A DNA stretch of 26,331 nt from Baffinella frigidus (lineage: Eukaryota; Cryptophyceae; Cryptomonadales; Baffinellaceae): contig MU646425.1 in the NCBI GenBank assembly GCA_026770585.1, positions 59,616 through 85,946 of the forward strand. Reading direction: 5' to 3'. This document shows, piece after piece, positions 46-26,276 of the stretch (position 1 is its first letter; each line of letters starts with the position of its first letter). Under the pieces are notes generated by a model. It searched no databases. It worked only from the letters and a program-made list of their open reading frames with translations, and was not told the DNA's origin. A program made the position numbers and the translations under genes.

Positions 46-116
46 GCAGCGAGGTCAACGGCGGGCAGCACACGATCCCGAGCCAGTTCGGCGCCATGCA
101 GCCCACGGCCATCAAG
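46..116 (+). CDS. P5CDH: P5CDH exon a (first in window)
   Basis: The acceptor is TGCAG at 41-45 and the donor GTCTCA at 117. The exon enters with two bases of a split codon and reads SEVNGGQHTIPSQFGAMQPT then AIK. This corresponds to the segment in ALDH12 proteins just before the VP(I/L) strand. It joins in frame to exon b. Confidence 0.88.
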
Positions 117-406
117 GTCTCACCTAAACCCGAAAACCTGGAGCCTGAAGACTGGACCCTAAACCAGCATGGTCTTAGGGTGGCCTGAGGTCCACGTGGG
201 TCCAACTCCATACTTGGAAACTTGAAAGAACTTTACGCTTGGAACCCTGGAAACTGGAACCTTCTTCCTCTCTACGTCCTAAACCCGTGACCACGTGCTC
301 GAGCAGGTGCCGATCCAGACGATGATCGACAACGTCGACCTGTGCTGCACCGAGCTCTTCGCCCCGTTCCAGGCATGTCCCCTCCGAAGTGGGTATATAG
401 ATATAG

Positions 407-447
<41 letters not shown>

Positions 448-3400
448 CATGTATATATATATAGGCCTTTTTCAATTGAGATAGAGACCTTGTTTGAATG
501 GTTGAGAGAGAGAGAGACCTTTCTCAGTACCGACACGGCCGGCATGGATGCGCCTGTTTCGTTGCAGGGGTTCGATCCACGTAATCCTCTCATTACAGGG
601 TTCGCTGTCCCCTAAACCCCAAACCTTACACCCCACACCCCACACCCCACACCCCACACCCCACACCCCACACCCTAAACCGTACCCCCTTCCCCCTAAA
701 CCCCGCGCCCTACATCCTACCCCCTACCCCCTACCCCCTACACCCAAAACTTCCGATCCCAAACGCTAACGCTGCGTGCCCCCGGCAGGTGGTGACTGAC
801 TACACAACAGAGCAGCTCCCGCTGGTCCACCAGCTGCTCAGAGTCCAGGTCTCTCCCACCCCCCCAACACTCAAGTGTTTCCCTAAACCTTAAGGCTCTG
901 GGTTCTGGGTTCCCTAAACCTTACGGGTCGGGGTGCAGAGCCCAAACCTAAGCGGGGTCAGTTTGGGGTTCGGGGAATAGGGAATGGGGTCCAGGGTTTT
1001 GGGGTCTCCGGTATGGGATTTAGGGCTGAAGGATCAGGGGTTTAGAGTTGAGGGTTTGGTAGGGTTGAGCAGCTCCCCCTGGTCTACCAGCTTCTCAGAT
1101 CCGAGGCCTCTTTCCCCCCAACACTCCAACACTCAAGGGTTATGGGTCCCCTAAACCTCAAGGCTCTGGGTTCTGGGTTCCCTCAACTTTAGGGCTCGGG
1201 GAGCAGGGCCCAAACCTATGCGGGATCAGTTTGGGGTTCGGGGTGTAGGATTTAGGGTGTGGGGGTAGTGTTGAGCAACTCCCCCTGGTCCACCAGCTCC
1301 TCAGATCCCAGGTCTCTTTCCCTGACCCACCCCTCTGACCTAAACCCAAAGGCGCCCTACGCCCTGGGCCCTAAGTTCAACCCTGACCCTTAAACCCTGA
1401 CCCATACATCCTGAACCCTGAACCCTGAACCCTGAACCCTAAACCCTACACGGTGAGGCCACTTGACGGTCCCTAAAACCTAGCTCCTAAACCCCAAATC
1501 CCAAAACCCAAAACCCGAAACCCAAACCCTTAACCCCTAACCCCAACGCAGGTGGAGCACCAGACGGCCATATCATATGATATATTTGTTAAGGGGGGTT
1601 GAGCCTACCGACATTGGCGATCGTCTCAAGCGACCCCACCTTCCAACCAACACCATCCTCTCCCCTAGACCCTCAATTCCAACCAACACCAGCCTCCCCC
1701 ACAAACCCTAAATACGCCCTACGGTAGGGCCCTAGGACCTGCCTAGGGAGACTTACGGGATAGCGTTGACGGTGTGCTGACTGCGCTGTTGTCGTGAGCT
1801 TCGGACCATACCAGAATCTGTCCTGATGAAAAGGCGCAAGATAGCATCATTCGATGCCTAAAATCGCATATACACCCTTACCTTCCGCGTGGGAAGCCTA
1901 AGATAGCGGGACAGATTCTGTCTTGGTCCGAAATTAAATTCCAACCAACACCAGCCTCTCCCCTGATCCCTAAATACGCCCTACGGTAGCGCCCTAGGAC
2001 CTGCCTAGGGAGACTTACGGGACAGCGTTGACGGTGTGCTGACTGCGCTGTTGTCGTGAGCAGGCGGGTTTGGGGTCTGGGTTCTAGGTTCTGGGTTCAG
2101 GGCTCAGGGTTCAGGGTCTCAAGGTTCAGTCGTGAGCTTACAGCGGCGATCGTCTCGACGACCCCTAAACCCTAAACCCTCAACGGTGAGGCCACTTGGC
2201 AGACCCTAAAACCTGGACTTCGTCAGTCGTCGAGTGCGCCATCTCGAACCTGCGCAGGTTTGAACGAAAGGCAGTTGACCCCCTCTTACCGGCGGAAGCT
2301 GGGGCGTGAAAGTGCCGCTCGATTGAGTCTAACAGAACCCCAAACCCCAACCTAGGCGGAGCACCTGACCGCGGCGATTGTCTCGAAAGACACCACCTTC
2401 CAGCGCAGCATCCTCTCCCAGGTCCGCATGTCTTGGGGTTGAGAGGTTTGGGTGTTGTGTGTGGCGTTTGGGGCGTTGGGTGTAGGCTGTTGGCTGTTGG
2501 ATTTAGGGTGCTGTGTGTTGGGTGTTGGGTGTTGGGTGTTGGGTGTTGGGTGTTGGGTGTTGGGTGTTGTGTGTGGCTTTATGGGGCGTTGGGTGTAGGC
2601 TGTAGGCTGTAGGCTGTTGGATTTAGAGTTTAGGGTGTTGGGTGTTGGGTGTTGGGTGTACTTAAGGTCGGTGTCGTCTCGAGCGACATCACCTTCCAGC
2701 GCAGCATCCTCTCGAAGGTTACGAGCCTCCCTCAACGCGAAACCTGGAACCCTGCGACCGTGAACCCTGCACCCTGCACCCTGCACCCTGAACCCAGAAC
2801 CCAGAACCCTGAACCCTGAACCCAGACCCCGAACCCGAACCCGAACCCGAACCCGGCACTCAAACCCTAACCCTAACCCGGAAGCACTCAGTCAACGGCA
2901 CAACTCACGTCGGCGTCCATCAACCCAAAACCATACACCCTAAACCCGCAACCCTAAACCCGCAACCGAAACCCAAACCCAAACCCTACCCCTAAACTCT
3001 CAACCCGGAAGCAGACAGTGAACGGCACGACCTACGTGGGCATCCGCGCCCGCACGACCGGCGCTCCCCAGAACCACTGGTTCGGGCCTTCCGGTGCCGC
3101 CCGACTCACCCTGCCTCCCGTTTCATTTTTTAAATTTTATTTATTTATTATGTTTTGCAACGTTTGGAGTGTACATGTCGTGGTTCTGGGGTGGGATGCT
3201 CCCTAGAACCGCTGGTTCGGGCCTTCCGGCACCGCCCCTCTTCCCATCACTTCCCATCATCGTGCCACCACTCCCCACCATCGTCCCAGCCCTGAACCCT
3301 GCATTCTGAACCTGAACCCGCACGACCGGCGCTCCCCAGAACCACTGCTTCGGGCCTTCCGGTACCGCCCGACTCATTCTGTCTCCCTTTATGATGATGA

Positions 3401-4439
3401 TTATTATTATTTTGTACCGCCCGCCCCCGCTCCCGCCCGAACTCGCTGCATGTCACAAGTCGGAGGGCCGGAATCTGGCCTCGGTTGCAGGCGATTATTT
3501 TAAAAATTACCGAGTTGTTCCCTCCCCGCTCGGCAGCGAAAACCCTTAACCCTTAACCCTGAACCCGCACGACCGGGGCTCCCCAGAACCACTGGTTCGG
3601 GCCTTCCGGTACCGCCCGACTCCCCCTGCCTCCCGTTTTAATCTATTCTTTTTGTTTTATTATGTTTTGCAACGTGTAGAGTGTAGATGGCCTTTTTATG
3701 TCGCACCCCAGAACCACTGGTTCGGGCCTTCCGGCACCGCCCCTCTTCCCACCACTTCGTATCATCTTCCGGCCCTCTTCCCACCACTTCCCATCATCTT
3801 CACATTACTTCCCATCCCATCATCTTTCCACCATTTTGCCATCACTTCCCACCATCGTGCCACCACTGCCCCTCATCTTTCCGCCTCTTCCCAGCCCTGA
3901 AACCTGCACCCTGAGCTCTCGCGCGCGCTCTCTCTCTCTCTCTCTTGTTCGCGAGTAACCCATGTGCTCATAACCTAACCCATGTGCTCATAACCTTGCG
4001 CAGGGGATCCGCGCGCGGCGGGTATCGGGACGGCCGACGCGATCCGGTAAACCCCAAACCCTACACCCTGAACCTTAAACCCTAAACCCTACACCCTGAA
4101 CCCTGAACCCTGAACCCTGAACCCTGAACCCCAAACCCTACACCCCAAACCCCAAACCCCAGACCCCAGACCCTAAACCCCAAACCCCAAACCCCAGACC
4201 CCAAACCCCAAACCCTAAACCGTAAGGTAAGCACTAAACGCCTAAACCCCAAACTCCTAAACCCCAAAACCCAAACCCCCAGCCCCCCAGCCCCAAACCC
4301 CCAGCCCCAAACCCTAACCCCCAAACCCCAAACCCTAACCCTTAATCCCAAACGCAGGCTGACCTGGTCATGCCACCGCGAGATCGTGCAGGACACCGCT
4401 GACATCCAGTCTGACTGGACCACCCCGGCCCGCACCTAA
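46..4439 (+). CDS. P5CDH: Delta-1-pyrroline-5-carboxylate dehydrogenase (ALDH12/P5CDH type), 3' part
   Basis: The product oxidises pyrroline-5-carboxylate/glutamate semialdehyde to glutamate with NAD+, the second step of proline breakdown, usually in mitochondria. Exons: 46-116, 307-372, 789-848, 2356-2421, 3015-3093, 4004-4046 and 4358-4439 (TAA 4437-4439). They join in one frame to about 155 codons. Diagnostic C-terminal blocks known from plant ALDH12 enzymes are visible: CTELFAPFQ, VVTDYTTEQLPLV, HLTAAIVSKDTTFQ, TVNGTTYVGIRARTTG, APQNHWFGPSG, DPRAAGIGTADAIR and LTWSCHREIVQD. NAD-binding and catalytic Cys/Glu regions must lie upstream of the window. All introns start GT except the one after 372, which starts GC. 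Family identification is from memory of conserved blocks but is very specific. Mitochondrial location is inferred from the family. Confidence 0.94.
307..372 (+). CDS. P5CDH: P5CDH exon b, followed by a GC donor
   Basis: The acceptor is CGAGCAG, ending at 306. The exon reads VPIQTMIDNVDLCCTELFAP then FQ, phase 0 at both ends. The donor is GCATGT, so this is a GC-AG intron. The TELFAPFQ block is the equivalent of T(E)xFGPFQ in plant P5CDH; here Ala replaces the usual Gly. The following intron holds a TATATG-type microsatellite. Confidence 0.9.
393..463. repeat. TATATG/TATA microsatellite in P5CDH intron
   Basis: A run of about 70 bases of TATAGA, then TATATG units, then TATATATA. It lies just after the GC donor of exon b. 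Confidence 0.95.
612..730. repeat. C-rich tandem repeats (CACACCC and CCCCTAC units)
   Basis: CACACCC-type heptamers at about 628-675, followed by CCCCCTA units at 710-740. These are variants of the CCCTAAA theme seen in nearly every intron. Confidence 0.85.
789..848 (+). CDS. P5CDH: P5CDH exon c
   Basis: The acceptor CCCCGGCAG ends at 788 and the donor is GTCTCT at 849. The exon is 20 codons, phase 0-0, reading VVTDYTTEQLPLVHQLLRVQ. Its 3' half is copied twice downstream (see 1067-1318). Confidence 0.92.
815..1320 (+). repeat. Exon c 3' half plus intron, three direct units
   Basis: The 3' half of exon c and about 200 bases of following intron recur. Copy 2 (exon part about 1067-1106) has the donor changed to GCCTCT. 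Copy 3 (1273-1310) keeps GTCTCT. The intron parts share the GGCTCTGGGTTCTGGGTTCC and GCGGG(G/A)TCAGTTTGGGGTTC stretches, so the unit is exon edge plus intron, not exon alone. No acceptor precedes the copies, so they are not complete exons. Confidence 0.88.
1552..1645 (+). pseudogene. Broken copy of P5CDH exon d
   Basis: GCAG, then a copy of the exon d start (GTGGAGCACCAGACGGCCAT) at 1551-1570, is interrupted by about 45 AT-rich foreign bases. It resumes with GGCGATCGTCTCAAGCGACC (AIVSSDPTF) at 1617. The insert contains the palindrome ATATCATATGATAT. It cannot encode the exon as it stands. Confidence 0.75.
1717..2062. repeat. Direct repeat pair flanking a 133-base inverted-repeat element
   Basis: An 83-base sequence beginning GCCCTACGGTAG is present at about 1718-1800 and again at 1979-2061, nearly identical (261 bases apart). 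Between them, 1800-1932 is a hairpin-type element. Its left end TTCGGACCATACCAGAATCT and its right end are imperfect inverted repeats of about 24 bases. Confidence 0.85.
2140..2168 (+). pseudogene. Fragment of exon d
   Basis: CAGCGGCGATCGTCTCGACG matches the AAIVS part of exon d (GCGGCGATTGTCTCG). It then runs straight into CCCTAAACCCTAAACCCT. Confidence 0.6.
2356..2421 (+). CDS. P5CDH: P5CDH exon d
   Basis: The acceptor is CCTAG at 2351-2355 and the donor GTCCGC at 2422. The exon is 22 codons, phase 0-0, reading AEHLTAAIVSKDTTFQRSIL then SQ. Broken copies lie on both sides (1552-1645, 2146-2168, 2670-2717). Confidence 0.92.
2440..2660. repeat. G-rich TGTTGGG tandem repeat, opposite strand sense to most introns
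   Basis: About 200 bases of GTGTTGGGTGTTGGG units interleaved with TAGGCTGT units. Here the G-rich strand is the coding strand, whereas most other introns have the C-rich strand in sense. Confidence 0.9.
2670..2720 (+). pseudogene. 3' copy of exon d
   Basis: It reads VVSSDITFQRSILSK, ending at AAG followed by GTTACG, so the donor is intact but there is no good acceptor. It differs from exon d by a few substitutions, including Lys to Ser and Thr to Ile. Confidence 0.8.
2750..2990. repeat. CCCTGAA / CCCGAA / CCCTAAA degenerate telomere-like repeats
   Basis: Runs of CTGCACC, CCTGAAC, CGAACC and CCTAAAC. At 2885-2920 a degenerate copy of the exon e start (NGTTHVGV) is embedded in the run. Confidence 0.85.
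3015..3093 (+). CDS. P5CDH: P5CDH exon e
   Basis: The acceptor GAAGCAG ends at 3014 and the donor is GTGCCG at 3094, phase 1 at the end. It reads TVNGTTYVGIRARTTG then APQNHWFGPSG, the best-conserved block of the ALDH12 C terminus. The split Gly codon completes in exon f. Confidence 0.95.
3197..3733 (+). repeat. Four extra 3' copies of P5CDH exon e
   Basis: Partial copies end at 3228, 3361, 3608 and 3733, each followed by (G)GYACCGCCC. Copies ending 3361 and 3608 keep GT (GTACCG). Copies ending 3228 and 3733 have GC in place of GT. The copy ending 3361 has Trp changed to Cys in NHWFG. Adjacent intron text (CCCATCATC, CCACCATCG runs; ATTATGTTTTGCAACGT) is copied too. None has the exon's own acceptor and 5' half. 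Confidence 0.92.
3925..4000. repeat. CT microsatellite and 22-base tandem duplication before exon f
   Basis: (CT)n at about 3928-3945. Then a duplicated TAACCCATGTGCTCA stretch, the second copy leading into CTTGCGCAG, the exon f acceptor. Confidence 0.85.
4004..4046 (+). CDS. P5CDH: P5CDH exon f (43 bases)
   Basis: The acceptor TTGCGCAG ends at 4003 and the donor is GTAAAC at 4047. It reads (G)DPRAAGIGTADAIR with both end codons split. It continues the exon e block exactly as in known P5CDH proteins. Confidence 0.92.
4047..4357. repeat. Intron made almost wholly of CCCTAAA/CCCCAAA repeats
   Basis: The last P5CDH intron is about 310 bases of degenerate heptamers (CCCTAAA, CCCTGAA, CCCCAAA) from donor to acceptor. 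No other content was seen. Confidence 0.9.
4358..4439 (+). CDS. P5CDH: P5CDH last exon with stop codon
   Basis: The acceptor AACGCAG ends at 4357. It reads LTWSCHREIVQDTADIQSDW then TTPART and TAA. LxWSCHRE is the conserved end of the family; the last fifteen or so residues are not recognisable. No clear polyadenylation signal was identified downstream. Confidence 0.93.
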
Positions 4440-4455
4440 GCACACGAACCTGACG

Positions 4456-4652: not shown

Positions 4653-4766
4653 GGTACCTCGCTCATAAGGAGGCGCACCCCCCCAGGACCCTACGGTAGG
4701 CATATCATAGCCCTACGGTGGTCCCTAGGGGGGGGCGCGGCTCCTTATGAGCGAGGTAACCCTGTA
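4653..4766. mobile_element. Hairpin MITE-like element 1 (GGTACCTCGCTCATAAG ends)
   Basis: The left end GGTACCTCGCTCATAAGG and the right end CCTTATGAGCGAGGTA are inverted repeats. The centre has CCCAGGACCCTACGGTAGG-type sequence. It is preceded by a GA-rich tract (4609-4651). Confidence 0.88.
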
Positions 4767-4903
4767 AGTACTGCGAATGACGGATCGTTGCATGTAAGCG
4801 CCGGTAAGTACGGGTCTCTCAGTACGTCTGAAAAGACCCGTAATTAGCTGTGCTTAGAGGTCCGCACTTAGGGGCGATGACGGGCCGACGCACCCCCCTG
4901 GAG

Positions 4904-5025
4904 CTACAGGGCTACCTCGCTCATAAGAACCGCCCACCCCCTAGGACCACCCTAGGACCCTATGCATGGTCCTACTGTAGGGTCCTGGGGGGGGACGGTT
5001 TCTTGTGAGCGAGGTACCCCTGTAG
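4904..5025. mobile_element. Hairpin MITE-like element 2
   Basis: CTACAGGGCTACCTCGCTCA at the left and TGAGCGAGGTACCCCTGTAG at the right form the inverted ends. The centre is CCCCCTAGGACC plus its near-complement. Confidence 0.92.
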
Positions 5026-5101
5026 ACTCATTCACTTGGGAGGGGCAACGTGTGCTCGGGTTGGGACCTTCCCCATGATGATTAAATTTGAGCTGACAGC
5101 T

Positions 5102-5564: not shown

Positions 5565-5633
5565 GAACGTGTGGGCCTCCTTCTTCTTCTTTATTACAGC
5601 TGTACAGTACATGGATGTACTCTCGATACAGGT

Positions 5634-5759
5634 CCTACAGGGGTACCTCGCTCATAAGAAACCAACCCCCCCTAGGACCCTACAGTAGGACCATGCCTAG
5701 GGTCCTATGGTGGTCCAAGGGGGTGGGGCAGTTTCTTATGAGCGAGGTACCCCTGTAGG
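5634..5759. mobile_element. Hairpin MITE-like element 3 (best-formed copy)
   Basis: CCTACAGGGGTACCTCGCTC at the left and GAGCGAGGTACCCCTGTAGG at the right are perfect complements. The element is about 126 bases and folds almost end to end. Confidence 0.95.
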
Positions 5760-5789
5760 TCCTTGAGGTTCTTCGAGCCCCCACTATCC

Positions 5790-6758: not shown

Positions 6759-7142
6759 ATGCCGGCACTCGCCCCCGTGGGCGGCTCCAGTCAGCGTGAG
6801 AACCAGAAGGGGCGCGGTTTGCTGTCTCCCGTAAAGAATCTGGGAAAACGCATGAAATCACTCGACGAGGAAAGGGACATGGTGTCCTCTCCCATGGGCC
6901 TCAATGATTTGTCCCGGGCCACGGAGACGCTGATGAAGTCCCCTGCTGGGTTGGAGACGCCAGAGACGTCGGAGCGCTGCCGGGTGCTCATGCGCCTGCG
7001 CCCCCTCCCGGCGTCCGATGGAGGGGCATCCCCCCTGGTCCTCAGTGGCAATTCCGTGGAGGTCATGTCGAGGGACGGCACCCAGGTGGATGACGTGGCC
7101 TCGTTCCCGTTCGACCATCTGTTCCCGCAGGATACGACGCAG
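6759..7142 (+). CDS. Kinesin exon 1: start codon, N-terminal extension, first motor strand
   Basis: The ATG at 6759 is the first after an in-frame TGA at 6726. The exon has 128 codons and ends [13 protein letters not shown] before GTCCGC. Residues 1-73 are Ser/Lys-rich with SP sites (LLSPVK, KSPAG, VSSPMG) and no recognised domain. The motor begins at [12 protein letters not shown]. [13 protein letters not shown] is the usual FDxVF motif. Splicing to exon 2 restores the classical TQxEVF junction. Confidence 0.93.
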
Positions 7143-19100: not shown

Positions 19101-22100
19101 TTGATACCAACGTGTGCTTCCAAATTCCAAAGCACCACTTGCTTTCGACATTGTGAAAAGCCCTTGATAACTCGCTGGGAGGAAACGGAGCTCCTCGGCT
19201 GACAGCTTCCGGTGCACCTGATCCGATCTTGGTAGTCAGAGCCTTGCATTATGTTTGAAAATTTCCTAAAAAAAAAAAAAAAAAACGGTTTTGGCAAAAC
19301 CGTAAGCCGCGCCCGGGGGGGGAAGGCCCCGAGCTTTTTAAGGCCCTGGGTTATAGGGACTTGTACAGGCTATTTATAAGCTGGATATACAATCCTTTTA
19401 GAGATCTTCACGTCCTGAATTGCGTCGTTTCCTCTTGATGTTTGGAGCCGTCTATGAGAATATGGGCGCATGATTTTTAGGATTCGAAAAAAAGGTCGTT
19501 GCAATGACCAAGAAGACGCGTTAAAAAAAACACAAAAACACTTTTGCCTCCATTAATAGAAAAAGAGTCACAACAACTCACTTTTGTGGGGTAAACAGTC
19601 CATCAATTCGAAATCCATTTATGCAAGCTGAGAAGGTCGATGTGAACAGCACACCATTTAACTATTCTTTTATATCTCCGAGCGGTGAGATGTCGTGGCT
19701 GTTCTCCTCATCTTGTCTCCGAGAGGACGTGATGATGCGCTTTACACTGTCGGAATTTCCGGTTCCGACTAGAGCCATTTGTTTTCTAAGGGATTCCCCC
19801 CCCCGGGCGCGGATGCTCGTCACTGCGTCGCCGCGGTGAAACGGGCTTGTTATTTCGCCATGCAAAACGGGGGTATGTTAGACTGCTGATTTCGCCATGC
19901 AAAACGGGGGTATTTTAGACTTTAGGCGAGCCCTGAAAAGCCCTGAGAAGAGAAAGTTGACGAGTTGAGAGTTGAGTGTGGGGTTCACTCAACCCCACCC
20001 CGTTGCCTCTTCGTGGCTCTCGAAGCGGTCACGTCCCCTTCCGGGACTCGAAGCTGACTTTGAGGTGGATGTGACTTTGGAGGTGGATGTGACTTTGGAG
20101 GAGAATGTGACTTTGGAGGGGGTTGTGACTTTGGAGGTGAATGTGGCCGCAGGTGGCGGGATCTGGATGAAACGCTCTCGACGCTCAAATTCGGCGCGCG
20201 CGCCCGCAACATCCGCAACTTAGTCAAGGTCAACTTAACACCCATCTTAACATCCGCAATTTATCTGGTCAACTTTAGGGGCGACTCTTTGAATGTCATT
20301 TTCAGAACGTTGCCTTCAAACTGCATCAGTTTTTACACGAAATAAATTCAATTAGCCGCTTTTCCAAAACCAAAGCGGGGCTCTGACTAGCAACATCGGA
20401 TCACGTCGACCTATGAGTGAAGGATGGGTTAGTGGTTTCTTGCCGACTTTGGAGCGGTTCTAGAGGGCGGTCTCTACATCTGTTGGCCACGAAAAGAATG
20501 AACCAATGGCAAACGTCGACGTGATAGTACCAGCGACGTCCACGTTTGGCATTTTTCTAGTATTTGTGTGGCCAACATATGTGAAAACCGCTCTGATGAA
20601 AGGCCATCGGGGGGGGTGACAACAGGTGAACCGGAAGCTGGTAGCCGAAGAGCTCCGTAGGAACCCCCCTACGTCCCTACGGGTTTCCTACCGTAGGGTC
20701 GTATGACTTGACGCCCATGGGTCATTGACGAATCGTCCCTACGGGTTGCCTACCGTAGGGTCGTATGTTCACGGCCTTGTTGTCTGGACCAGGCGGCCTC
20801 TGAGGAGTTGTGGGACAAAAACAACAGGTGAACCGGAAGCTGTCGGCCGAGGAGCTGGAGCGTCTTCTCAACTCCCTCCGCCAAGATCACGAGGTCACAT
20901 CAGTGTCCTATTACTTTCCTATCAGTTTCCTATCAGTTTCCTATCAGATATCAGTTTCCTATCAGTTTCCTATCAGTTTCCTATCAGTTTACTATCAGAT
21001 ATTTCCTATCAGTTTCCTATCAGTTTCCTATCAGATAGGAAAATGATAGGCCGAGGAGCTGGAGCGTCTTCTCAACTCCCTCCGCCAAGACCACGAGGTC
21101 ACATCAGTGTCCTATTACTTTCCTATCAGTTTCCTATCAGTTTCCTATCAGATATCAGTTTCCTATCAGTTTCCTATCAGTTTCCTATCAGTTTACTATC
21201 AGATATTTCCTATCAGTTTCCTATCAGTTTCCTATCAGATAGGAAAATGATAGGCCGAGGAGCTGGAGCGTCTTCTCAACTCCCTCCGCCAAGACCACGA
21301 GGTCACATCAGTTTCCTATCAGTTTCCTATCAGTTTCCTATCAGTTTACTATCAGATATTTCCTATCAGTTTCCTATCAGTTTCCTATCAGATAGGAAAA
21401 TGATAGGCCGAGGAGCTGGAGCGTCTTCTCAACTCCCTCCGCCAAGACCACGAGGTCACGTCAGTGTCCTATCAGTTTCCTATCATTTTCCTATCAGTTT
21501 CCTATTAGTTTCCTATTAGTTTCCTATCAGTTTCCTATTAGTTTCCTGATGGTTTCCTATTGGTCTCCCGTGAGTTTCCTGTGAATGCCCGACCGGTATT
21601 CAAGAGCTGGAGCGTCTTCTCAACTCCCTCCGCCAAGACCACGAGGTCATAGGAAACTTACCGGAAACTAATAGGAAACTAGTAGAAATCCAATAGGAAA
21701 CTGATAGGAAACTAACAGGAGACCAATACGAAAATAGTAGGAAACTAACAGGAGACCAATAGGAACATAGTAGGAGACTAATAGGAACCTGATAGGAAAA
21801 TGATAGGGAAATGATAGGCCGAAGAGCTGGAGCGCCTGCTCAACTCCCTCCGCCAAGACCACGAGGTCGACTTCAACCTTACACCCTAAACCCCAAAGGG
21901 GCATAGGAAACTAACAGGAGACCACGGCGGTCATAGGAAACTAGGTGGAAACTAATAGGAAACTAGTAGGAAACTGATAGGGAACTAGTAGGAAACTAGC
22001 AGGAAACTAATAGGACACTAGTAGGAAACTAATAGGAAACTGATATGAAACTGATAGGAACATAGTAGGAGACTAATAGGAAACTGATAGGAAAATAATA

Positions 22101-25100
22101 GGAAAATGATAGGAAAATGATAGGCCGAAGAGCTGGAGCGCCTGCTCGCCTCCCTCCGACAAGACCACGAGGTCGACTTCAACCCTACACCCCAAAACCT
22201 GAAACCTGAACCATAAAGCATAAACCCTAAACCCTAAACCCTAAACCCTAAGCCCTAAACCCTAAACCCTAAACTCTAAGCCCTAAACCCTAAACCCTCC
22301 TCTAGGACTGAGGCTGCGACAGCAGCCTCTATTTCCCCTAAGTACGTTTTTCCCCCCCCTCAACCCTAAACCCCCGCGCCCACAGGCGCTGCGCAAGCAC
22401 TGCCGCGAGCTGGAACGACGCCTCGCATCCTCGGAAGACATTCTCCAAAGACTATCAGAGCCACAGTCCACCCTGATGAAAAAGGAGGTTCGTCTTCCTA
22501 CACGGTTTTGGGGTCAGGGGGATGGGCCGTGACACCCCAACCCCCACACCCTCAACCCCCACACCCCGAACTACAGGCGCTGCGCAAGCACTGCCGCGAG
22601 CTCGAACGACGCCTTGCATCCTCGGAAGACAAGGAGAACGGCTCCGCACCCTCACCCTTCCCCTCCACGCCCTCCAACGGTTCGACCCCAAACACGACCC
22701 TACAGCATAAATCCTACAGCATGAACCATGAACCATAAACCATAAACCATAAACCATAAACCATAAACCATAAACCATAATCCATAAACCATAAACCATA
22801 AAACATACAACAACGGTATCCTCGGAGGACAAAGAGAACGGCTCCGCGTCCTCGCCCTTTCCATCCACGCCCTCCAACTGTTCGACCCTTTACCCTACAA
22901 CCTACACCCTACATCCTGATCCCTGAACCCTACACCCTACGCTCTAATTCCTAAACCCTAAACCCTAAAACCTAAACCCAAAACCCCAAACCCTCACCCA
23001 AAACCCAAAACCCAAAACCCAAAACCCAAAACCCAAAACCCAAACCCCAAAACCCTGAACACCGAACACTGAAACCCCAACCTTGAACCGTAAACCCCCA
23101 GCCCTAAACCCGAAACCCCACAGGTGCGTTCCGGAGCAATTCGAACCCCAAGTCGCCAGGTGGGAAGCAAACGGGGGACTTTGAGGAGGATGATGGGGTC
23201 GACAGGTTGTGAGCCCTCACCCTCCCTTCTTTTTTATTTATTATTACTCGCGATACAGGTCCTAGATGAGGCCGTTGAGCCTTGAGTTGAGTGATACCAA
23301 AGTCTACGAGCCTTAAGAAACGGGCCCGCCTCAGAGACAAGAGCTATGTCGTTTGGCATAGCTATCGGCTCCGCCAAAGTTGCCAGGCGGGAAGAAGACG
23401 GGGGACTTTGAGGATGATGGGGTTGACAGGTTGTGAACCCACACCCTGAAACCCGAACCGAGAAACCCTGACCCTAAGCCCCTCACCCTAAGCCCCTCAC
23501 CCTAAGCCCCTCACCCTAAGCCCGTCACCCTAAGCCCCTCACCCTAAGCTCCTCACCCTAAGCCCCTCACCTCACCCTCAAACTCGAACCCAGAAACCCT
23601 CACCCTGAAACACGAACCCAGAAACCCTTACCTTGAAACCCGAACCAAGAAACCCTCACCCTGAAACCCGAACCCAGAAACCCTCACCCTGAAACCCGAA
23701 CCAAAAAAAACTGACCCTGGCCCTGAAAACCGGACCCTAAAAAAACTCACCCTGAAACCCTTGCCTGGAAACCCTCGCCCTGGAACCCTCACCCGGAAAC
23801 CCTCGCCCCCAAAACCTCACCCTGGAACCCTCGACCAGAAACCCCCGCCTTGGAACCCGAGACCCGAACACATGAACGCTGAACCTGAACTCTGGATGCC
23901 GAACCCTGCGCGTGTGAAACCCAAGACCCTGCACCAAGACACCCGAATCCCGAATCCCGAATCCCGAAAGCCGTGTCCTAAACCTCGAGACCTGAAACCC
24001 GAAATTCGAAACCCGAATCCTAAAACCCGAACCCCAAAACCCGAAACCCGAAACCCGAAACTCGAAACTCGAAACCCGAAACCCGAAACCTGAAACAGGA
24101 CCCCGAGCGGTGGGGGAGGGTGGCCCGGAACCCAGCACCAACAAGCAACCCACACCCCAGCACCAAGAAACGCCCGAAACCCGAAACCCGAAACCTGGAG
24201 CAAGACCCCAAGCGGTGGGAAAGGGTGGATTGGGCGCACCCCCGAAACCCCAAAGCCGAAACCCGAATCCTCAACCCGAAACCCGAAACCCGAATTCTAA
24301 AACCGAAACCCGAAATCTGAAACCCGAAACCCGGAGCAGGACCCCGAGTGGTGGAGAAGGGTGGATTGGGCGCACGCCCGGGAAGGAGGAGCCTGCGGCC
24401 ACGCTCTCGGCGGTGCACCCTAACCCCTAAACCTGAAACACTAATTGAAGATTTCCTATGAGTTTCCTATGAGGTTCCTATCAGTTTCCTATGAGGTTCC
24501 TATCAGTTTCCTATCAGTTTCCTATCAGTTTCCTATGCAGGGTGGATTGGGCGCACGCCCGGGAAGGAGGAGCCTGCGGTCACGCTCTCTGCGGTAAACC
24601 CTGAACCCTGAACCCTGAACCCTAAACCCTAAATTTCGTAGGAACCTGATACGAAACTGATACAAAACTGAAACGAAAGTGATACGAAAATGATGGGGGG
24701 ATGATAGTAAGCTGATAGAAAACTGATACGAAACTCAAAGAAACTCATAGGAAACTCAAGGACACTCGTGGAAATCGGTTGGTTCTCATAGTCAACTAAT
24801 AAAAAACCCCACATGTGTGCAACTGGTGTCGGTGCGCGCACGACAAAGAAGAAACCGCCTCGCCAAATGTGTATGCATCTCAGGGGAAACTCATAGAAAA
24901 TTGGTATAGGTCTCATAGGAAACTGATAGGAAACTGATAGGAAACTGATAGGAAACTCATAGGAAACTCATAGGAAACGCGTAGGAATCGGATGGGAAAC
25001 TAATAGGAAACTAATAGGACAGCTTCAATCGGCGACAGGTGTGCAACCGGTGGCGGCGCGCGCACGACAAAGAGGACATCGCGTCCCCCACCAGCAGCCT

Positions 25101-26276
25101 CGACCCCCTCCGCCTGCTCCCTACGTCTGATGCATAGATCTTATAGGAAACTCATAGGAAACTCACAGGAAACTCATAGGAAACTGATGGGAAACTCATT
25201 GGAAACTCATAGGAAATGCATAAGAGACTCATAGGAAACTCATAGGAAACTTGTAGCAAACTCATAGGAACATGATAGGAAGCTGATAGGAAACTGATAG
25301 GAAACTGGTACGAAACTCATAGGAAACTGATACGGGGAGCACAGGTGTGCAACCGGTGGCGGCGCGCGCACGACAAAGAGGACATCGCGTCCCCCGCCAG
25401 CAGCCTCGACCCCCTCCGCCTCCTCCAACGCATCGCAGAGCTCGAGTCCGCCAACGTCGACATGCAGGTCCGCCCGCGGCATTTATTTACAAGTCGGTTT
25501 TACGCTCGCGTCCACGTTTGTATGGGGGCTGGGCACGTTCCCGTGGTTAACGTGACCAGATCCCGTACAAACTCTCTAAAAGTACGCACTTGTAGATTTT
25601 AAAGAAAGGCCGCGGCCAGCCTGGACCCCCTCCGCCTCCTGCAGCGCATCGCAGAATCCGAGTCAGGTGCTTTTAAGCACGTCTTACACGAAACGTTTCA
25701 GGTCTCATACGAAACGGTATAGATCTCAAACCCTCTCCGCCCCCCCCCCCCCATCTGTTAGAGCGAATCCGGGAAGACGTTGCGGATTCTTGGGGTTTGA
25801 GGTTCCGAGGTTTTGAGGTTGTTTGTACCAGGAACTCGATTTGCAGAGGGTTGTAACTGTTTCATGTTTTATTACTGTTACAAACAGGTCCGTCCATCCT
25901 CCTCCTCATCATCCTCCTCCTCCTGTCTGACGTGGCGTGACGCGCATGGATTGGCGGCCCCTACGGTAGGCAATACCGTAGGGTCATAGGGGGGTTCCTA
26001 CGGATATGGTAACGGAAAGGTGGACCGATGTGGGCCGAAAATCCCTTCGTAGCCCGCTGTGTGGTTGGCGCAGTTCACACTCAACTCAGAGGGAAGCCCG
26101 TACGCACACGGGCCCGCCTCGGCACGTGCCTAATAACCTGTGCACGTTTCGAGTAAAGTCGCTTTTTCTCTCCCTAACCTGTTCGCGTGGGCAGATCGAG
26201 TTGGAGAGTCTCGCAATGGCGCAAGAGTCAGCCTCCCCGACGGCCGTCGTGCGCACCTCCCTCTCCCTCTCCGCAA
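6759..26276 (+). CDS. Kinesin heavy chain-like motor protein (kinesin-1-like), 5' part
   Basis: A plus-end-type microtubule motor is predicted. Exons: 6759-7142, 8673-8756, 11035-11117, 11435-11477, 12309-12376, 12947-13016, 14387-14487, 15260-15348, 16862-16921, 18231-18363, 20153-20228, 20828-20893, 22386-22487, 22577-22679, 23124-23205, 24340-24412, 25345-25467 and 26195-26276. All phases agree. Landmarks: [10 protein letters not shown] (residue 74), P-loop [13 protein letters not shown], switch [11 protein letters not shown], switch [44 protein letters not shown], then the neck [14 protein letters not shown]. The ETLSTLKFG and LSAEEL neck most resemble kinesin-1. The stalk continues past the window. 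Introns 4 and 6 start GC rather than GT. Confidence 0.93.
7370..7530. mobile_element. Inverted-repeat element with CCACACAGCGG ends
   Basis: The left end CCACACAGCGGGCTACGAAG matches the complement of the right end, CTTCGAAGTCCGCTGTGTGG, with few mismatches. The middle has CCCTACGGGTTGCCTACCGT. A partial copy in the opposite orientation lies at about 25950-26063. Confidence 0.88.
7720..7912. mobile_element. Inverted-repeat element
   Basis: The left arm CCAACCCTCACGGAAGGACC then AAATCGATGGATT pairs with the right arm AATCGACGATTTGGTCTTTC then CGTGAGGGTTGG. The loop contains the duplicated CCCAGATCTGGGG palindromes. Confidence 0.82.
8034..8162. mobile_element. 129-base inverted-repeat element
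   Basis: CTAGCTCTGCCTCACTCGG at the left and CCGAGTCAGGCAGAGCTAG at the right are complementary apart from one position. Confidence 0.85.
8230..8672 (+). promoter_or_regulatory. Array of duplicated 3' splice-site units before exon 2
   Basis: Units combining TTGACTAA (a good branch-point match) with CTCTCGTGCGCAG (pyrimidine run plus acceptor) and AGCGA or AGGGG recur at about 28-30 base spacing from 8240 to 8455, and again at 8630-8672. The last is the true exon 2 acceptor (TTCTCGTGCGCAG, then AGCGAGGTG). Because several units also carry AGCGA, the unit looks like a copy of the intron end plus the first exon bases. Related units occur at 7648-7678 and 7996-8024. Confidence 0.85.
8673..8756 (+). 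CDS. Kinesin exon 2
   Basis: 28 codons, phase 0-0, donor GTCCCT. It reads [20 protein letters not shown] then [12 protein letters not shown] begins the P-loop motif that exon 3 completes (TGAGKT). Confidence 0.95.
8901..9515 (+). repeat. Partial copies of kinesin exon 2 (3' part)
   Basis: Copies: 8901-8960 ([20 protein letters not shown], donor GTTTTA); 9098-9155 ([18 protein letters not shown] intact, with about 75 bases of intron as after exon 2); a stub at about 9220-9238; 9352-9388 ([11 protein letters not shown]); and a trace at 9493-9515. All but the last keep CAG followed by GT. None has the exon start SEVFAEV or an acceptor at the right place. Confidence 0.92.
8962..9097. mobile_element. 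Inverted-repeat element fused to an exon 2 copy
   Basis: The left arm TTTATCTCAGATAAACACTT then GTCGTTTTCCTACAG, and the right arm AAGTTGACGGATTTTGTAGG then TTTAGGAAAACG, are inverted. The right end is missing: it runs into the exon copy at ACGACTCGG. Confidence 0.82.
9698..9853. mobile_element. Complete inverted-repeat element of the same family
   Basis: Ends TTTATCTCAGAAAAGGACTT and its complement AAGTCCTTTTCTGAGATAAA. The inner arms match those at 8962-9097 (CCACAAATCCGTCAA and TTGACGGTTTTGTAGG). It is about 156 bases with no reading frame. Confidence 0.9.
10070..10990 (+). repeat. Tandem units carrying kinesin exon 3 copies (P-loop)
   Basis: Four extra copies precede the used exon: 10181-10218 ([12 protein letters not shown]-loop Gly changed to Glu), 10284-10345, 10551-10607 and 10806-10861 ([11 protein letters not shown](A/T)ADDAGII intact). 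Copies 2-4 lose the exon after GGCATCATC, running into CGCTTCxGCxTCGATAG. Each unit, about 255-270 bases, also repeats TTAATTAGGCCGCCTAATTA and GTGGACTGATAC. Acceptor-like CAG or TAG precedes each copy. Confidence 0.92.
11035..11117 (+). CDS. Kinesin exon 3 (P-loop)
   Basis: The acceptor ACCACCAG ends at 11034 and the donor is GTAACA at 11118. It reads [20 protein letters not shown] then RALHELF plus a split Ala codon. With exon 2 it gives [11 protein letters not shown], the ATP phosphate-binding loop. It is the only copy with both the 5' and 3' parts. Confidence 0.93.
11160..11434. repeat. CCCGAAA repeats with a 3' copy of exon 3
   Basis: Heptamers CCCGAAA and CCCTGAA at 11190-11285. Then 11289-11325 repeats GGCATCATCCCGCGCGCACT through TTCGC with donor GTAACA and the following AACAACCCC. 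More heptamers run to the exon 4 acceptor. Confidence 0.9.
11435..11477 (+). CDS. Kinesin exon 4 (43 bases), GC donor
   Basis: The acceptor ACTCAG ends at 11434. It reads (A)[14 protein letters not shown]. The phase to exon 5 ([11 protein letters not shown]) requires the donor GCACTC after AAG, so this is a GC-AG intron. [18 protein letters not shown] corresponds to the conserved (V)xVSYxEIYxExxxDLL of kinesins. Confidence 0.88.
11478..12000. repeat. Kinesin intron 4: purine-rich duplication and heptamer repeats
   Basis: 11600-11790 contains an imperfect inverted repeat: TAGAGCTATTCCGGTAGGACTTGT on the left, and ACAAGTCCTACCGGAATGGCTCTA on the right at about 11771-11794. Inner CGATTTCGAGATTTCGAGAC on the left pairs with GAAATCTCGAAGTCG on the right. 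CCCCAAA repeats follow to 12000. Confidence 0.78.
12001..12308 (+). repeat. Two complete exon 5 copies in an exact 154-base tandem array
   Basis: Copies start at 12001 and 12155, the used exon at 12309: two steps of exactly 154 bases. Each copy has CCAG before GCATCGATGCTGGAGATCTA, reads ASMLEIY(I/M)[11 protein letters not shown], then diverges to RSC(E/V)SLG with a consensus donor GTGAGT. That donor is phase 1, whereas exon 6 needs phase 2. Confidence 0.93.
12309..12376 (+). CDS. Kinesin exon 5
   Basis: The acceptor GGCCCCAG ends at 12308 and the donor is GTCCCG at 12377. It reads [20 protein letters not shown] then KL with a split Arg. It was chosen over the two upstream copies because only its donor phase fits exon 6 (giving [12 protein letters not shown]). 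Confidence 0.88.
12679..12748 (+). repeat. Full-length copy of kinesin exon 6 with a dead donor
   Basis: The acceptor ACCCAG ends at 12678. It reads [20 protein letters not shown] then NAQ, with one replacement (Val to Gly) in 23 codons. After CAG comes CCTGCC rather than GCAAAC, so no donor is present. Confidence 0.9.
12947..13016 (+). CDS. Kinesin exon 6, GC donor
   Basis: The acceptor GCGTGGCAG ends at 12946, with a branch-point-like TTGACTGATG about 25-30 bases upstream. It reads [20 protein letters not shown] then NAQ. The next exon begins AALSVVKAG in phase 0, so the intron begins GCAAAC: the third GC-AG intron of the window. Confidence 0.88.
13017..13472. repeat. Telomere-like heptamer block
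   Basis: CCCTGAA, CCCCGAA and CCCTAAA runs, including six near-perfect CCCTAAA units at 13365-13397. At 13096-13145 GGGTTTAGGGTT faces TTAACCCTAAACCCT, an inverted pair. Confidence 0.9.
13473..14230 (+). repeat. Four 5' copies of kinesin exon 7 in about 200-270-base units
   Basis: Copies start at 13473, 13741, 13967 and 14168, each after CAG, and read [20 protein letters not shown] with few replacements. The copy at 13741 has two extra bases (frameshift). All stop matching at ATGAACC and pass into CCTCAACCC/CCTAAAACC repeats, then CCGTAGGGACCAA and an ATTATATTAT tract, before the next CAG. The used exon continues with CAGCACTCGAGC. Confidence 0.94.
14387..14487 (+). CDS. Kinesin exon 7 (switch I)
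   Basis: The acceptor GTAAGCAG ends at 14386 and the donor is GTACCG at 14488. It reads [20 protein letters not shown] then [22 protein letters not shown] is the switch I NxxSSRSH motif that senses the nucleotide gamma-phosphate. It is the only one of five copies to include this motif in full with the 5' part. Confidence 0.95.
14634..14808 (+). repeat. 3' copies of exon 7
   Basis: 14634-14693 repeats ACGGGAGCGACGAACATGAA through CATCCTCACCCTCCG with donor GTCTGC, retaining [10 protein letters not shown]. 14784-14808 is a shorter stub, SHCILAL, followed by GTACCG. Confidence 0.9.
15260..15348 (+). CDS. Kinesin exon 8 (switch II)
   Basis: The acceptor GAATGCAG ends at 15259 and the donor is GTTCTG at 15349. 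It reads [20 protein letters not shown] then AGLERVDRT plus a split Gly. DLAGLE takes the place of the near-invariant DLAGSE of switch II. Confidence 0.94.
15486..15744 (+). repeat. Two 3' copies of kinesin exon 8
   Basis: 15486-15551 ([20 protein letters not shown] then T, donor GTTCTG) and 15691-15744 ([17 protein letters not shown], donor GTGGCG). The atypical Leu is coded CTC, CTG and TTG in the exon and the two copies. The following intron text (GAGCCCC and GTAAAGCAA) is repeated as well. Confidence 0.92.
15760..16861 (+). repeat. Array of about 57-60-base units derived from the end of intron 8
   Basis: Roughly ten units of TTTTGTAAAGCACTTAATCA, ACTTTTCCTGATGCGGCAAC and TTGTGGGACGCAGCAA lie at 16290-16840, with looser relatives from 15760. 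The last unit runs into the true exon 9 acceptor (TTTTGGGGACAG). Degenerate exon 9 starts occur at 15905-15920 and 16107-16133 (GGGCAAGGCGCTCGGGGAGG). Confidence 0.85.
16862..16921 (+). CDS. Kinesin exon 9
   Basis: The acceptor GGGGACAG ends at 16861 and the donor is GTCAGA at 16922. It reads [19 protein letters not shown] with split Gly codons at both ends, the switch II cluster/alpha-4 region (typical INxSLSALG). Confidence 0.94.
17223..17752 (+). repeat. Five 3' copies of exon 9 with intron
   Basis: ACCTCTCTCTCCGCCCTTGG-like ends occur at about 17226-17252, 17366-17391, 17484-17511, 17577-17608 and 17725-17750. Four are followed by GTCTGA, GTCAAA or GTCAAC (donor kept). Copied intron text includes CCTGATATCCCACCCTGCCA and CTTGGATTTCAGTCTAGACC. 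The third copy lacks a donor. Confidence 0.88.
17926..17997. repeat. 18-base tandem repeat x4
   Basis: ATCGCGATTCTCCCAAAA four times, almost perfect, immediately before a degenerate exon 10 copy. TCGCGA is palindromic. Confidence 0.95.
18000..18066 (+). pseudogene. Degenerate copy of kinesin exon 10 (middle part)
   Basis: GCGCAAGCCGGGCGATCGCA through CTCCTCAATTCCCTGAC reads [20 protein letters not shown] then SL. It matches exon 10 apart from Ile-Pro to Thr-Arg and a missing Lys codon, and lacks both splice sites. Confidence 0.88.
18231..18363 (+). CDS. Kinesin exon 10
   Basis: The acceptor TTTCTCGCAG ends at 18230 and the donor is GTGAAA at 18364. It reads [20 protein letters not shown] then [20 protein letters not shown] and ASP plus a split Arg. 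[11 protein letters not shown] and LGGNxKT are kinesin motor signatures. At 133 bases it is the largest internal exon. Confidence 0.96.
18428..18480. repeat. 15-base tandem repeat x3
   Basis: CTGAGGTCTCAGCCG three times. The start of a longer block (AGAAGCAACTTTTGCTTTCA onward) recurs at about 18475, 18700 and 19079. Confidence 0.92.
18566..19838 (+). repeat. 3' copies of exon 10 with intron
   Basis: 18566-18618 ([16 protein letters not shown], donor GTGAAA, then ACCCCCAAGACC as after exon 10); 18833-18885 ([22 protein letters not shown]); a stub at 19170-19190 (SLGGN); and 19804-19838 (MLVTASP, GTGAAA). The remaining intron has homopolymer A and C runs and no recognised gene. Confidence 0.9.
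19840..19925. repeat. Short direct repeat in intron 10
   Basis: ATTTCGCCATGCAAAACGGG GGTATxTTAGACT occurs twice (about 19852-19881 and 19889-19920), right after the last 3' copy of exon 10. Confidence 0.88.
20015..20144 (+). repeat. Exon 10 fragment running into an 18-base minisatellite
   Basis: GCGGTCACGTCCCCTTCCGG and GACTCGAAGCTGACTTT resemble exon 10 [11 protein letters not shown] (here [10 protein letters not shown]). From GACTTTG the sequence becomes five units of 18 bases (GACTTTGGAGGTGGATGT type) ending ten bases before exon 11. Confidence 0.88.
20153..20228 (+). CDS. Kinesin exon 11 (end of motor, neck linker)
   Basis: The acceptor GGCCGCAG ends at 20152 and the donor is GTCAAC at 20229. 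It reads [20 protein letters not shown] then RNLVK. ETLSTLxFGxRAxxIxN closes the motor; the spacing from the exon 10 SP to ETL is as in kinesin-1. Confidence 0.95.
20229..20625. mobile_element. Intron 11 with an inverted-repeat element (about 20475-20584)
   Basis: CTGTTGGCCACGAAAAGAAT ... GGCAAACGTCGACGT on the left pairs with ACGTCCACGTTTGGC ... GTGTGGCCAACATATG on the right. The rest of the intron has no recognised content. Confidence 0.75.
20626..20772 (+). repeat. Truncated neck-exon copy with duplicated CCTACGGG element pieces
   Basis: 20626-20656 reads [10 protein letters not shown] after ACAACAG, then is broken by AGGAACCCCCCTACGTCCCT. CGTCCCTACGGGTTxCCTAC plus CGTAGGGTCGTATG occurs at about 20672-20706 and again at 20734-20768. 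Confidence 0.9.
20828..20893 (+). CDS. Kinesin exon 12 (neck)
   Basis: The acceptor ACAACAG ends at 20827 and the donor is GTCACA at 20894. It reads [20 protein letters not shown] then HE, phase 0-0. VNxxLSxxEL is the kinesin-1 neck-linker/neck junction. LERLLNSL is the start of a coiled coil. Confidence 0.93.
21050..22171 (+). repeat. Neck-exon cassette array: six more copies
   Basis: Copies: 21050-21097, 21254-21301, 21407-21454, 21605-21645 (5' truncated), 21818-21865 and 22124-22171. Five are exactly 48 bases, [16 protein letters not shown] (last one LLASL), preceded by GATAG and followed by GTCACA, GTCACG or GTCGAC. Each is a possible in-frame 16-residue exon. Spacers are 10-base TTCCTATCAG repeats up to about 21560, then the complementary CTGATAGGAA type from about 21650. 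Confidence 0.95.
22172..22385. repeat. CCCTAAA telomere-like block
   Basis: About a dozen CCCTAAA/CCCTAAG units at 22222-22300, among the purest of the window, lead into exon 13. Confidence 0.92.
22386..22487 (+). CDS. Kinesin exon 13 (coiled coil)
   Basis: The acceptor GCCCACAG ends at 22385 and the donor is GTTCGT at 22488. 34 codons, phase 0-0: [20 protein letters not shown] then [14 protein letters not shown]. Heptad-like leucines suggest a stalk coiled coil. It may be alternative to exon 14 or used together with it. Confidence 0.85.
22577..22679 (+). CDS. Kinesin exon 14 (second version of exon 13 with a Ser/Pro-rich end)
   Basis: The acceptor AACTACAG ends at 22576 and the donor is GTTCGA at 22680, phase 1. 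It repeats [18 protein letters not shown] with only synonymous changes, then continues [17 protein letters not shown]. Its phase 1 end fits exon 15, so exon 14 is needed for a continuous frame while exon 13 can be included or skipped. Confidence 0.8.
22690..23123 (+). repeat. CCATAAA/CCCAAAA repeats with a 3' copy of exon 14
   Basis: An ACCATAA tandem at 22720-22805, then 22818-22876, a copy of the end of exon 14 ([20 protein letters not shown]). Then CCCTACA, CCCTAAA and CCCAAAA runs continue to exon 15. The copy's donor region reads CTGTTC instead of CGGTTC. Confidence 0.88.
23124..23205 (+). CDS. Kinesin exon 15 (acidic, low complexity)
   Basis: The acceptor CCCACAG ends at 23123 and the donor is GTTGTG at 23206. 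In phase with exon 14 it reads [20 protein letters not shown] then EDDGVD. The frame is supported by a downstream copy that loses exactly one GAG codon and has wobble changes in this frame. No known domain. Confidence 0.75.
23206..23700. repeat. Copy of exon 15 and CCCTCACCCTAAGC repeats
   Basis: 23380-23429 repeats [18 protein letters not shown] followed by GTTGTGA. 23470-23575 has about seven units of 15 bases (CCCTAAGCCCCTCAC), then CCCTGAAACCCGAACC units. Confidence 0.9.
23700..24338. repeat. CCCGAAA/CCCTGGA repeats with two exon 16 5' copies
   Basis: Long degenerate heptamer runs. Exon 16 starts are embedded at 24099-24135 (TPSGGGGW) and 24204-24243 ([13 protein letters not shown]), each passing directly back into CCCGAAACC repeats. 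Confidence 0.9.
24340..24412 (+). CDS. Kinesin exon 16
   Basis: The acceptor GGAGCAG ends at 24339 and the donor is GTGCAC at 24413. It reads [20 protein letters not shown] then TLSA, in phase with exons 15 and 17. Low-complexity linker of unknown role. Confidence 0.75.
24445..25340 (+). repeat. 10-base CCTATCAG/CTCATAGGAAA satellite with copies of exons 16 and 17
   Basis: TTTCCTATCAG-type spacer at 24450-24535; exon 16 3' copy 24541-24593 (donor GTAAAC). Then the complementary AGGAAACTGATAGGAAACTC type follows at 24640-24780, 24890-25020 and 25140-25325. Between these lie exon 17 copies: 24815-24868 (degenerate) and 25039-25118 ([20 protein letters not shown] intact, acceptor ACAG, then truncated). 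Confidence 0.9.
25345..25467 (+). CDS. Kinesin exon 17 (stalk)
   Basis: The acceptor AGCACAG ends at 25344 and the donor is GTCCGC at 25468. 41 codons, phase 0-0: [41 protein letters not shown]. The second half is coiled-coil-like. Confidence 0.88.
25612..25666 (+). repeat. 3' copy of kinesin exon 17
   Basis: Reads [19 protein letters not shown]. It matches exon 17 with four synonymous codon changes, one replacement (Leu to Ser) and a missing Ser codon. The splice sites are not convincing. Confidence 0.85.
25946..26063. mobile_element. Partial reverse copy of the 7370-7530 element
   Basis: CCTACGGTAGGCAATACCGT through AAAATCCCTTCGTAGCCCGC TGTGTGG is the reverse complement of the left two thirds of the element in intron 1, with scattered mismatches. 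Confidence 0.85.
26195..26276 (+). CDS. Kinesin exon 18 (last in window)
   Basis: The acceptor GTGGGCAG ends at 26194 and the donor is GTAAGC at 26277. In phase with exon 17 it reads [20 protein letters not shown] then TSLSLSA. This joins NVDMQ to IELES, extending the coiled coil before a Ser/Thr-rich part. The gene continues beyond the window. Confidence 0.82.

Follow-up and report, generated by a model that had tools for sequence, protein, structure and literature searches.

Gene content of the window

The window analysed here is a 26,331-nt stretch of nuclear DNA matched to the cryptophyte Baffinella frigidus (assembly size 382 Mb), flanked by runs of N at both ends. It carries the 3' end of a gene for delta-1-pyrroline-5-carboxylate dehydrogenase (P5CDH) and most of one kinesin gene. 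The P5CDH exon model comes entirely from homology, its 155-residue spliced tail matching ALDH12 (PDB 6d97, E = 2.5e-53). The kinesin exons are fixed by independent RNA-derived evidence, at the level of protein rather than transcript: the 17-exon spliced model is identical at 573/573 model residues to a 612-residue protein derived from the MMETSP0987 transcriptome (P0001; taxid 697907, Baffinella frigidus). An Rfam search of the window returned nothing at gathering scores, and NCBIfam assigned neither the P5CDH tail nor the kinesin to a family. Three of the 23 donors of both gene models (at 372, 11477, and 13016) are GC rather than GT, a share that seems high.

The P5CDH features are as follows, the exons being those supported by the PDB 6d97 match of the spliced tail:

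46..116, +, P5CDH (ALDH12) exon a (ends read from sequence)
307..372, +, exon b, GC donor
789..848, +, exon c
1067..1102, +, exon c copy, 3' part
1273..1311, +, exon c copy, 3' part
1601..1664, +, exon d copy, upstream, decayed, near-full (exon bases 4-64 of 66), with indels
2137..2158, +, exon d short copy (bases 10-31)
2356..2421, +, exon d
2676..2713, +, exon d copy, 3' part
2889..2918, +, exon e copy, 5' part
3015..3093, +, exon e
3198..3228, +, exon e copy, 3' part
3317..3361, +, exon e copy, 3' part
3564..3608, +, exon e copy, 3' part
3702..3733, +, exon e copy, 3' part
4004..4046, +, exon f
4358..4439, +, last exon, with stop

Several repeat families accompany the genes. A 140-base dispersed repeat lies in a P5CDH intron (1801-1940), with relatives in the sampled loci L011, L014, L018, and L029, and the intergenic region (4654-6545) is rich in a dispersed, nearly palindromic, MITE-like repeat of about 120 bases (GTACCTCGCTCATAAGAAACC...) that recurs in many other sampled loci in both orientations. 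Introns are also rich in short arrays (609-745, 4049-4353, 11860-11999, 22181-22298, and elsewhere), some made of 7-base AAACCCT-like units that resemble telomere repeats and are mostly C-rich on the coding strand, others of 11-base TTTCCTATCAG units in either orientation. A foldback element about 150 bases long, its inverted ends reading TTATCTCAGAAAA, occurs at 9697-9852 and 8962-9102, and also in loci L011, L015, and L024.

For the kinesin gene, real exons were defined by identity to the transcriptome protein, and copies were detected with the exons as queries (E ≤ 1e-3), excluding matches within the query exon itself:

6759..7142, +, kinesin exon 1, without copy
8673..8756, +, exon 2
8902..8960, +, exon 2 copy, 3' part
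8962..9102, +, truncated foldback element between two exon 2 copies, its right end joining the next copy at a shared ACGACT
9096..9155, +, exon 2 copy, 3' part, plus 71 intron bases
9221..9237, +, 17-base copy of the exon 2 end
9352..9388, +, exon 2 copy, 3' part
10181..10215, +, exon 3 copy, 5' part
10284..10345, +, exon 3 copy, 5' part
10551..10609, +, exon 3 copy, 5' part, 100% identical
10806..10864, +, exon 3 copy, 5' part, 100% identical
11035..11117, +, exon 3
11289..11325, +, exon 3 copy, 3' part
11435..11477, +, exon 4, GC donor, without copy
12001..12057, +, exon 5 copy, 5' part
12155..12211, +, exon 5 copy, 5' part (154-base tandem unit)
12309..12376, +, exon 5
12679..12748, +, exon 6 full-length copy, donor CC
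12947..13016, +, exon 6, GC donor
13473..13536, +, exon 7 copy, 5' part
13745..13806, +, exon 7 copy, 5' part
13967..14030, +, exon 7 copy, 5' part
14168..14231, +, exon 7 copy, 5' part
14387..14487, +, exon 7
14634..14693, +, exon 7 copy, 3' part
14783..14806, +, exon 7 copy, 3' part
15260..15348, +, exon 8
15487..15551, +, exon 8 copy, 3' part
15693..15744, +, exon 8 copy, 3' part
16264..16857, +, direct duplications of intron only (masked self-comparison)
16862..16921, +, exon 9
17225..17247, +, exon 9 copy, 3' part
17364..17385, +, exon 9 copy, 3' part
17579..17598, +, exon 9 copy, 3' part, GT lost
18000..18058, +, exon 10 copy, middle
18231..18363, +, exon 10
18564..18616, +, exon 10 copy, 3' part
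18830..18884, +, exon 10 copy, 3' part
19189..19217, -, exon 12 copy, 5' part, the sole antisense copy, in another intron
20030..20061, +, exon 10 weak copy, middle
20153..20228, +, exon 11, without copy
20626..20654, +, exon 12 copy, 5' part
20828..20893, +, exon 12
21049..21097, +, exon 12 copy, 3' part
21253..21301, +, exon 12 copy, 3' part
21406..21454, +, exon 12 copy, 3' part
21604..21645, +, exon 12 copy, 3' part
21817..21865, +, exon 12 copy, 3' part
22123..22171, +, exon 12 copy, 3' part, farthest and most diverged of the downstream set
22386..22440, +, exon 13 copy, 5' part
22577..22679, +, exon 13
22818..22878, +, exon 13 copy, 3' part
23124..23205, +, exon 14
23374..23429, +, exon 14 copy, 3' part
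24099..24123, +, exon 15 copy, 5' part
24204..24244, +, exon 15 copy, 5' part, AG lost
24340..24412, +, exon 15
24539..24593, +, exon 15 copy, 3' part
24815..24864, +, exon 16 copy, 5' part, AG lost
25039..25120, +, exon 16 copy, 5' part
25345..25467, +, exon 16
25617..25664, +, exon 16 copy, middle
26195..26276, +, exon 17, without copy; GT donor starts after 26276

The spacer between the two exon 5 copies (12058-12154) has a GTGAGT donor-like site and a CCCCAG end, so that it mostly resembles a small intron of its own.

Half-exon copies lie in sense orientation beside their own exon

A first-pass annotation of this DNA had claimed that exons of both genes possess local copies of themselves, and masked self-comparison confirms dense local direct repeats throughout. 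With exon queries at E ≤ 1e-3, copies were found for 13 of the 15 internal kinesin exons 2-16 (2, 3, 5, 6, 7, 8, 9, 10, 12, 13, 14, 15, and 16) and none for exons 1, 4, 11, and 17. The sense orientation noted earlier and closeness to the source exon also hold, with 43 sense copies to 1 antisense in the kinesin gene and every sense copy lying in one of the two introns that adjoin its exon. From an exon side to its nearest copy, the median spacing is 230 bases (IQR 215-258, n = 20 exon sides), against the 150-270 bases first given as the unit length.

The copies are arranged by a simple side rule. Among 18 upstream kinesin copies, 16 consist of the 5' part of the exon with its acceptor, one is full-length, and one is from the middle; among 25 downstream copies, 23 consist of the 3' part with its donor and two are from the middle. 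The reversed arrangement, a 3' part upstream or a 5' part downstream, was seen 0 times among the 39 one-ended kinesin copies, and together the 43:1 orientation and the 39:0 side rule for one-ended copies are more than chance. In P5CDH, the copies proposed for exons c, d, and e are present in sense orientation within their own introns, and these obey the same rule except for the near-full copy upstream of exon d. Since 42 of the 43 kinesin sense copies are partial, each of these is missing at least one splice site, and the only full-length one, of exon 6, has a broken donor that is neither GT nor GC. Each kinesin exon is present once in the transcriptome protein, so the copies are intronic in the corresponding transcript.

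Full-length copies are rarer than random placement predicts. Units of 154-306 bp positioned randomly should yield a full exon in 38-66% of the copies that overlap an exon; one was found on 1/20 kinesin exon sides (P = 0.0009 at 38%, with sides treated as independent).

The pattern recurs in other gene loci

The suggestion that the process is not confined to these two genes is borne out by a survey of two families, kinesin (PF00225) and chaperonin (PF00118), at 21 other loci, 7 of which have the same pattern. The genome gave 55 family matches, of which 51 were taken (leaving out three in the window and one on contig C1202); four of these fell outside the sampled loci, leaving 47 coding segments. 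A strict survey used 44 of them, omitting two that are copies of a listed exon and one with four internal stops, and keeping five with one internal stop. At E ≤ 1e-5 and within 1.5 kb, 11 of the 44 segments, in 7/21 loci, had copies, 33 in sense and 0 in antisense orientation. On the upstream side lay 20 copies of a 5' half and none of a 3' half, and on the downstream side 12 of a 3' half and 1 of a 5' half, so that 32 of the 33 obey the side rule. At a looser setting (E ≤ 1e-3, any distance in the locus), 15/47 segments had direct copies, with 52 sense and 2 antisense matches, among them distant ones to short repeats. The remaining 14/21 loci had no copies at E ≤ 1e-5 within 1.5 kb, and in several of them the matched segments are long (264-876 bases for L009-L014). 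As the surveyed segments are parts of exons, full-exon copies are not scorable in these loci.

Introns are duplicated as well

The proposal that the process works exon by exon and adds length to introns is supported by these data, but its stronger form, in which exon-intron borders are copied as such, is not supported, because intron segments are duplicated too. Among exon-length segments of kinesin intron containing neither short arrays nor exon copies, 66/150 have local direct copies and 17 have inverted ones, compared with 13/15 and 0 for exons, and the intron-segment matches number 249 direct versus 21 inverted. Intron-only duplications are thus frequent. Exons are nevertheless over-represented: 78% of exon bases have a local direct partner versus 28% of the remaining unmasked intron, and coverage averaged 48% and never exceeded 75% when the exons, which may then fall on exon copies, were shifted circularly 2000 times. 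A roughly twofold advantage of exons would be expected in any case, since the real exon is held by selection and its relic stays recognisable for longer. We therefore rejected border specificity as the main claim, although exons exceed shifted positions, and gene-wide local duplication describes the process better than a copying of exon borders.

Divergence between copies and exons

Kinesin copies differ from their exon by 0-22%, with 4 gap positions in 2085 aligned sites. The 145 differences in 42 copies (41 of the 43 sense copies plus an exon 9 copy at 17730-17752) fall at codon positions 1/2/3 in the proportion 19/18/108, and comprise 105 synonymous (S) to 40 non-synonymous (N) changes, an omega-like value of 0.13, for which about 0.5 would be expected if copy and exon age alike. 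The synonymous share of 105/145 contrasts with 40-49% under a model of dead relics (P below 1e-7 in each of five mutation models). At the other loci, the counts are 129 S to 70 N (0.19), with 27/38/134 differences at the three codon positions (n = 199). The P5CDH copies have a smaller synonymous excess than the kinesin ones, at 18 S to 18 N (0.34).

We then assigned the changes of the window kinesin and the 11 segments to lineages. The counts are 29 S to 2 N for the functional exon's lineage, 20 S to 29 N (one of them a stop) for private changes of an inner copy, and 24 S to 37 N for those of the outermost copy; exon sites lying under one copy only give 77 S to 38 N. This split implies that the real exon is constrained and the copies mostly released. 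Strong coding constraint on the copies was accordingly set aside, as the split shifts much of the bias, though not all of it, to the functional exon. Even the private inner changes, at 20/49, lean synonymous (P = 0.03 or 0.15, depending on the mutation model). Gene conversion or origin from another allele could account for the overall synonymous excess.

Of 20 sets of copies, 18 are untied, and in 13 of these the nearest copy resembles the exon more closely than the farthest does (one-sided P = 0.05); beyond the window, this trend is weak (15 vs 10 pairs). An annotation-free measure of codon periodicity in the sampled loci and the window scored 15/143 pairs of direct repeats against 4.4 expected and 1/17 inverted pairs against 0.4, which is supportive rather than decisive; under a limit of 9000 N, L029 and L032 are the only two of the five regions meant as random controls in these counts.

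Probable local tandem duplication with a proposed splicing sieve

The best reading of these observations, and one we regard as probable, is frequent same-strand local tandem duplication throughout genes combined with a selective sieve on splicing. Short duplications of about 150-300 bp would strike anywhere along genes, and frequently. Those lying inside an exon, or spanning a whole exon with both splice sites, would alter the mRNA and be lost, whereas those with one end in the intron and the other in the exon would leave a whole exon plus a half-exon with a single splice site, to be spliced out as part of the intron. Repeated events at both exon edges would place 5' halves upstream and 3' halves downstream while the introns grow, and the half-exons would decay while the real exon is kept. 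As the mutational step, the replication machinery may switch templates, for which hairpin elements and short arrays are conceivable sites.

Several features of the copies agree with this reading. Direct orientation beside the source is found in 43/44 window kinesin copies, and the predicted side with an intact original in 39/39 one-ended ones, as follows if an intron-exon segment is duplicated next to itself and the original exon is left whole; a non-tandem insertion of exon pieces should also yield 3' pieces upstream, and none was found in the kinesin gene. On whether one unit abuts the next, the picture is mixed: repeat length equals spacing for the 154-base unit and the near-identical 204-base units from 20845 on, and 12 of 40 copies have little intron sequence in common with the functional flank (see below). 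A sieve against whole-exon copies, suggested by their scarcity, would explain why half-copies are tolerated, each apparently lacking one of the two splice signals needed for entry into the mRNA. With regard to microhomology-mediated template switching (FoSTeS/MMBIR), two junctions read by eye, rather than from a systematic count, fit a backward switch at a hairpin and are anecdotal: at 9096-9102 the broken foldback element joins the exon 2 copy through the shared ACGACT (6 bases), and at about 9215-9225 TCCTCG (6 bases) is common to both sides.

Several observations pull against it. Differences between copy and exon are far more synonymous than dead relics would give, a near-full decayed copy lies upstream of P5CDH exon d, 14/21 surveyed loci lack copies at the strict setting, the looser setting includes two antisense matches, and the greater similarity of the nearest copies is weak beyond the window. 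Plain tandem duplication followed by slow decay fits poorly with 12 of 40 copies (39 of the 43 sense copies plus the exon 9 copy at 17730-17752), which have at most 10 intron bases in common with the functional exon's flank while their exon part is 78-100% identical. Homology ending so close to the splice site suggests that the intron side has been turned over or has received filler sequence.

This early end of homology, together with the synonymous bias, would also be accounted for by ectopic gene conversion, in which continued exchange between half-exon and real exon would be confined to the exon part and leave the intron part to drift. In the exon 3 copies at 10551 and 10806, 59/59 bases match the exon, although the intron flanks look like two types. 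We consider this contribution possible but doubtful: some copies have clearly diverged, to 78% identity, a tract length of 40-80 bases is low for homologous exchange, and conversion would supplement tandem duplication rather than replace it.

Less likely still is an introner-like insertion of short elements whose unusually long target duplications (about 60 bases) catch a splice site. The foldback element at 8962-9102, lying between two 60-base exon 2 copies, suggested such an event, and the 12/40 copies whose match to the functional exon and its flank includes no more than 10 intron bases would fit it. Among five members of the foldback family in other loci, however, two show 4-base target duplications by eye and three are ambiguous, and after inspecting them we set aside a long target-site duplication at exon 2. 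Furthermore, clean tandem repeats that include intron exist (the 154-base and 204-base units), and only 11 kinesin intron stretches match the other sampled loci (a twelfth match is exon 10), so that most kinesin spacers are unique within the 157 kb compared.

That the copies are alternative exons, a tandem or mutually exclusive exon duplication diversifying the protein, is improbable to a still greater degree. Third positions hold most differences (108/145 in the window and 134/199 elsewhere) and indels are few (4 gap positions in 2085 sites), which speaks for it, but all sense kinesin copies except one are partial, the exception has neither a GT nor a GC donor, the transcriptome protein holds every exon once, and private changes of inner copies are mostly non-synonymous, one being a stop. 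Repeated misassembly of single exons, which the N on both sides of the window and units of 98-100% identity might suggest, is scarcely credible, since 0-22% divergence with a codon-position pattern means that most copies are no assembly error and the same anatomy appears on other scaffolds.

Relation to known systems

Mutually exclusive exons, like tandemly duplicated ones, are complete and have both splice sites. They share with the Baffinella copies the repetition of one exon within a gene, but the latter are half-exons with one splice site: 1/43 is full-length and has lost its donor, and the copies are absent from the one transcriptome protein. Introners resemble our case as a large-scale source of intronic sequence in diverse eukaryotes (PMC9860276), yet they are families of similar elements at many genes, whereas each Baffinella copy resembles the neighbouring exon: the exon copies match their own exon, and 11 stretches of kinesin intron match the 157 kb of other loci compared.

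Tandem duplication has been treated as a source of new introns (review, PMC3443670). In the AGGT model of intron gain, as outlined there and in PMC4974935, tandemly duplicated exonic sequence partly becomes intronic, a feature shared with Baffinella, but that model needs an AGGT segment inside an exon and makes an intron, whereas the Baffinella segments span existing borders and lengthen existing introns, the kinesin copies sitting inside introns of a transcript-supported model. The closest precedent is the potato RdRp gene, where one tandem duplication across an exon-intron boundary gave a new intron through a cryptic donor (PMC4974935); this is a single event, as opposed to dozens of copies in several genes and on both exon sides. 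The first-pass view that this is not a described system thus holds in part, a single border-crossing duplication having been described. For serial half-exon duplication in Baffinella or other cryptophytes, we found no report in the open-licence PMC literature as judged by titles and abstract openings, and the main text of a cryptophyte genome paper (PMC12220804) does not name Baffinella. We regard the phenomenon as a variant of tandem genomic duplication for whose serial, many-gene form we found no earlier account.

Implications for intron growth

Intron growth is often explained through transposons. In the sampled intron-rich genes of Baffinella, much intron sequence can be traced to duplicated segments of the gene in which it lies. 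The anatomy of the copies seems to show what splicing tolerates, namely half-exons and not whole exons. Since selection keeps the real exon unchanged, every relic provides a date for its duplication, and one assembly with RNA reads would suffice to measure how fast local tandem duplications arise, how strongly additional exons are selected against, and how much gene conversion, if any, takes place.

A further proposal, which we offer as speculative and rather unlikely, is that exons act as constant sources of intron sequence, their edges shedding half-exon copies outward that stay in partial exchange with the living exon. If true, introns would in large part be autobiographical, preserving their own exons as dated fossils, and half-exons that are not expressed would be indirectly constrained as coding sequence through their capacity to overwrite the exon.
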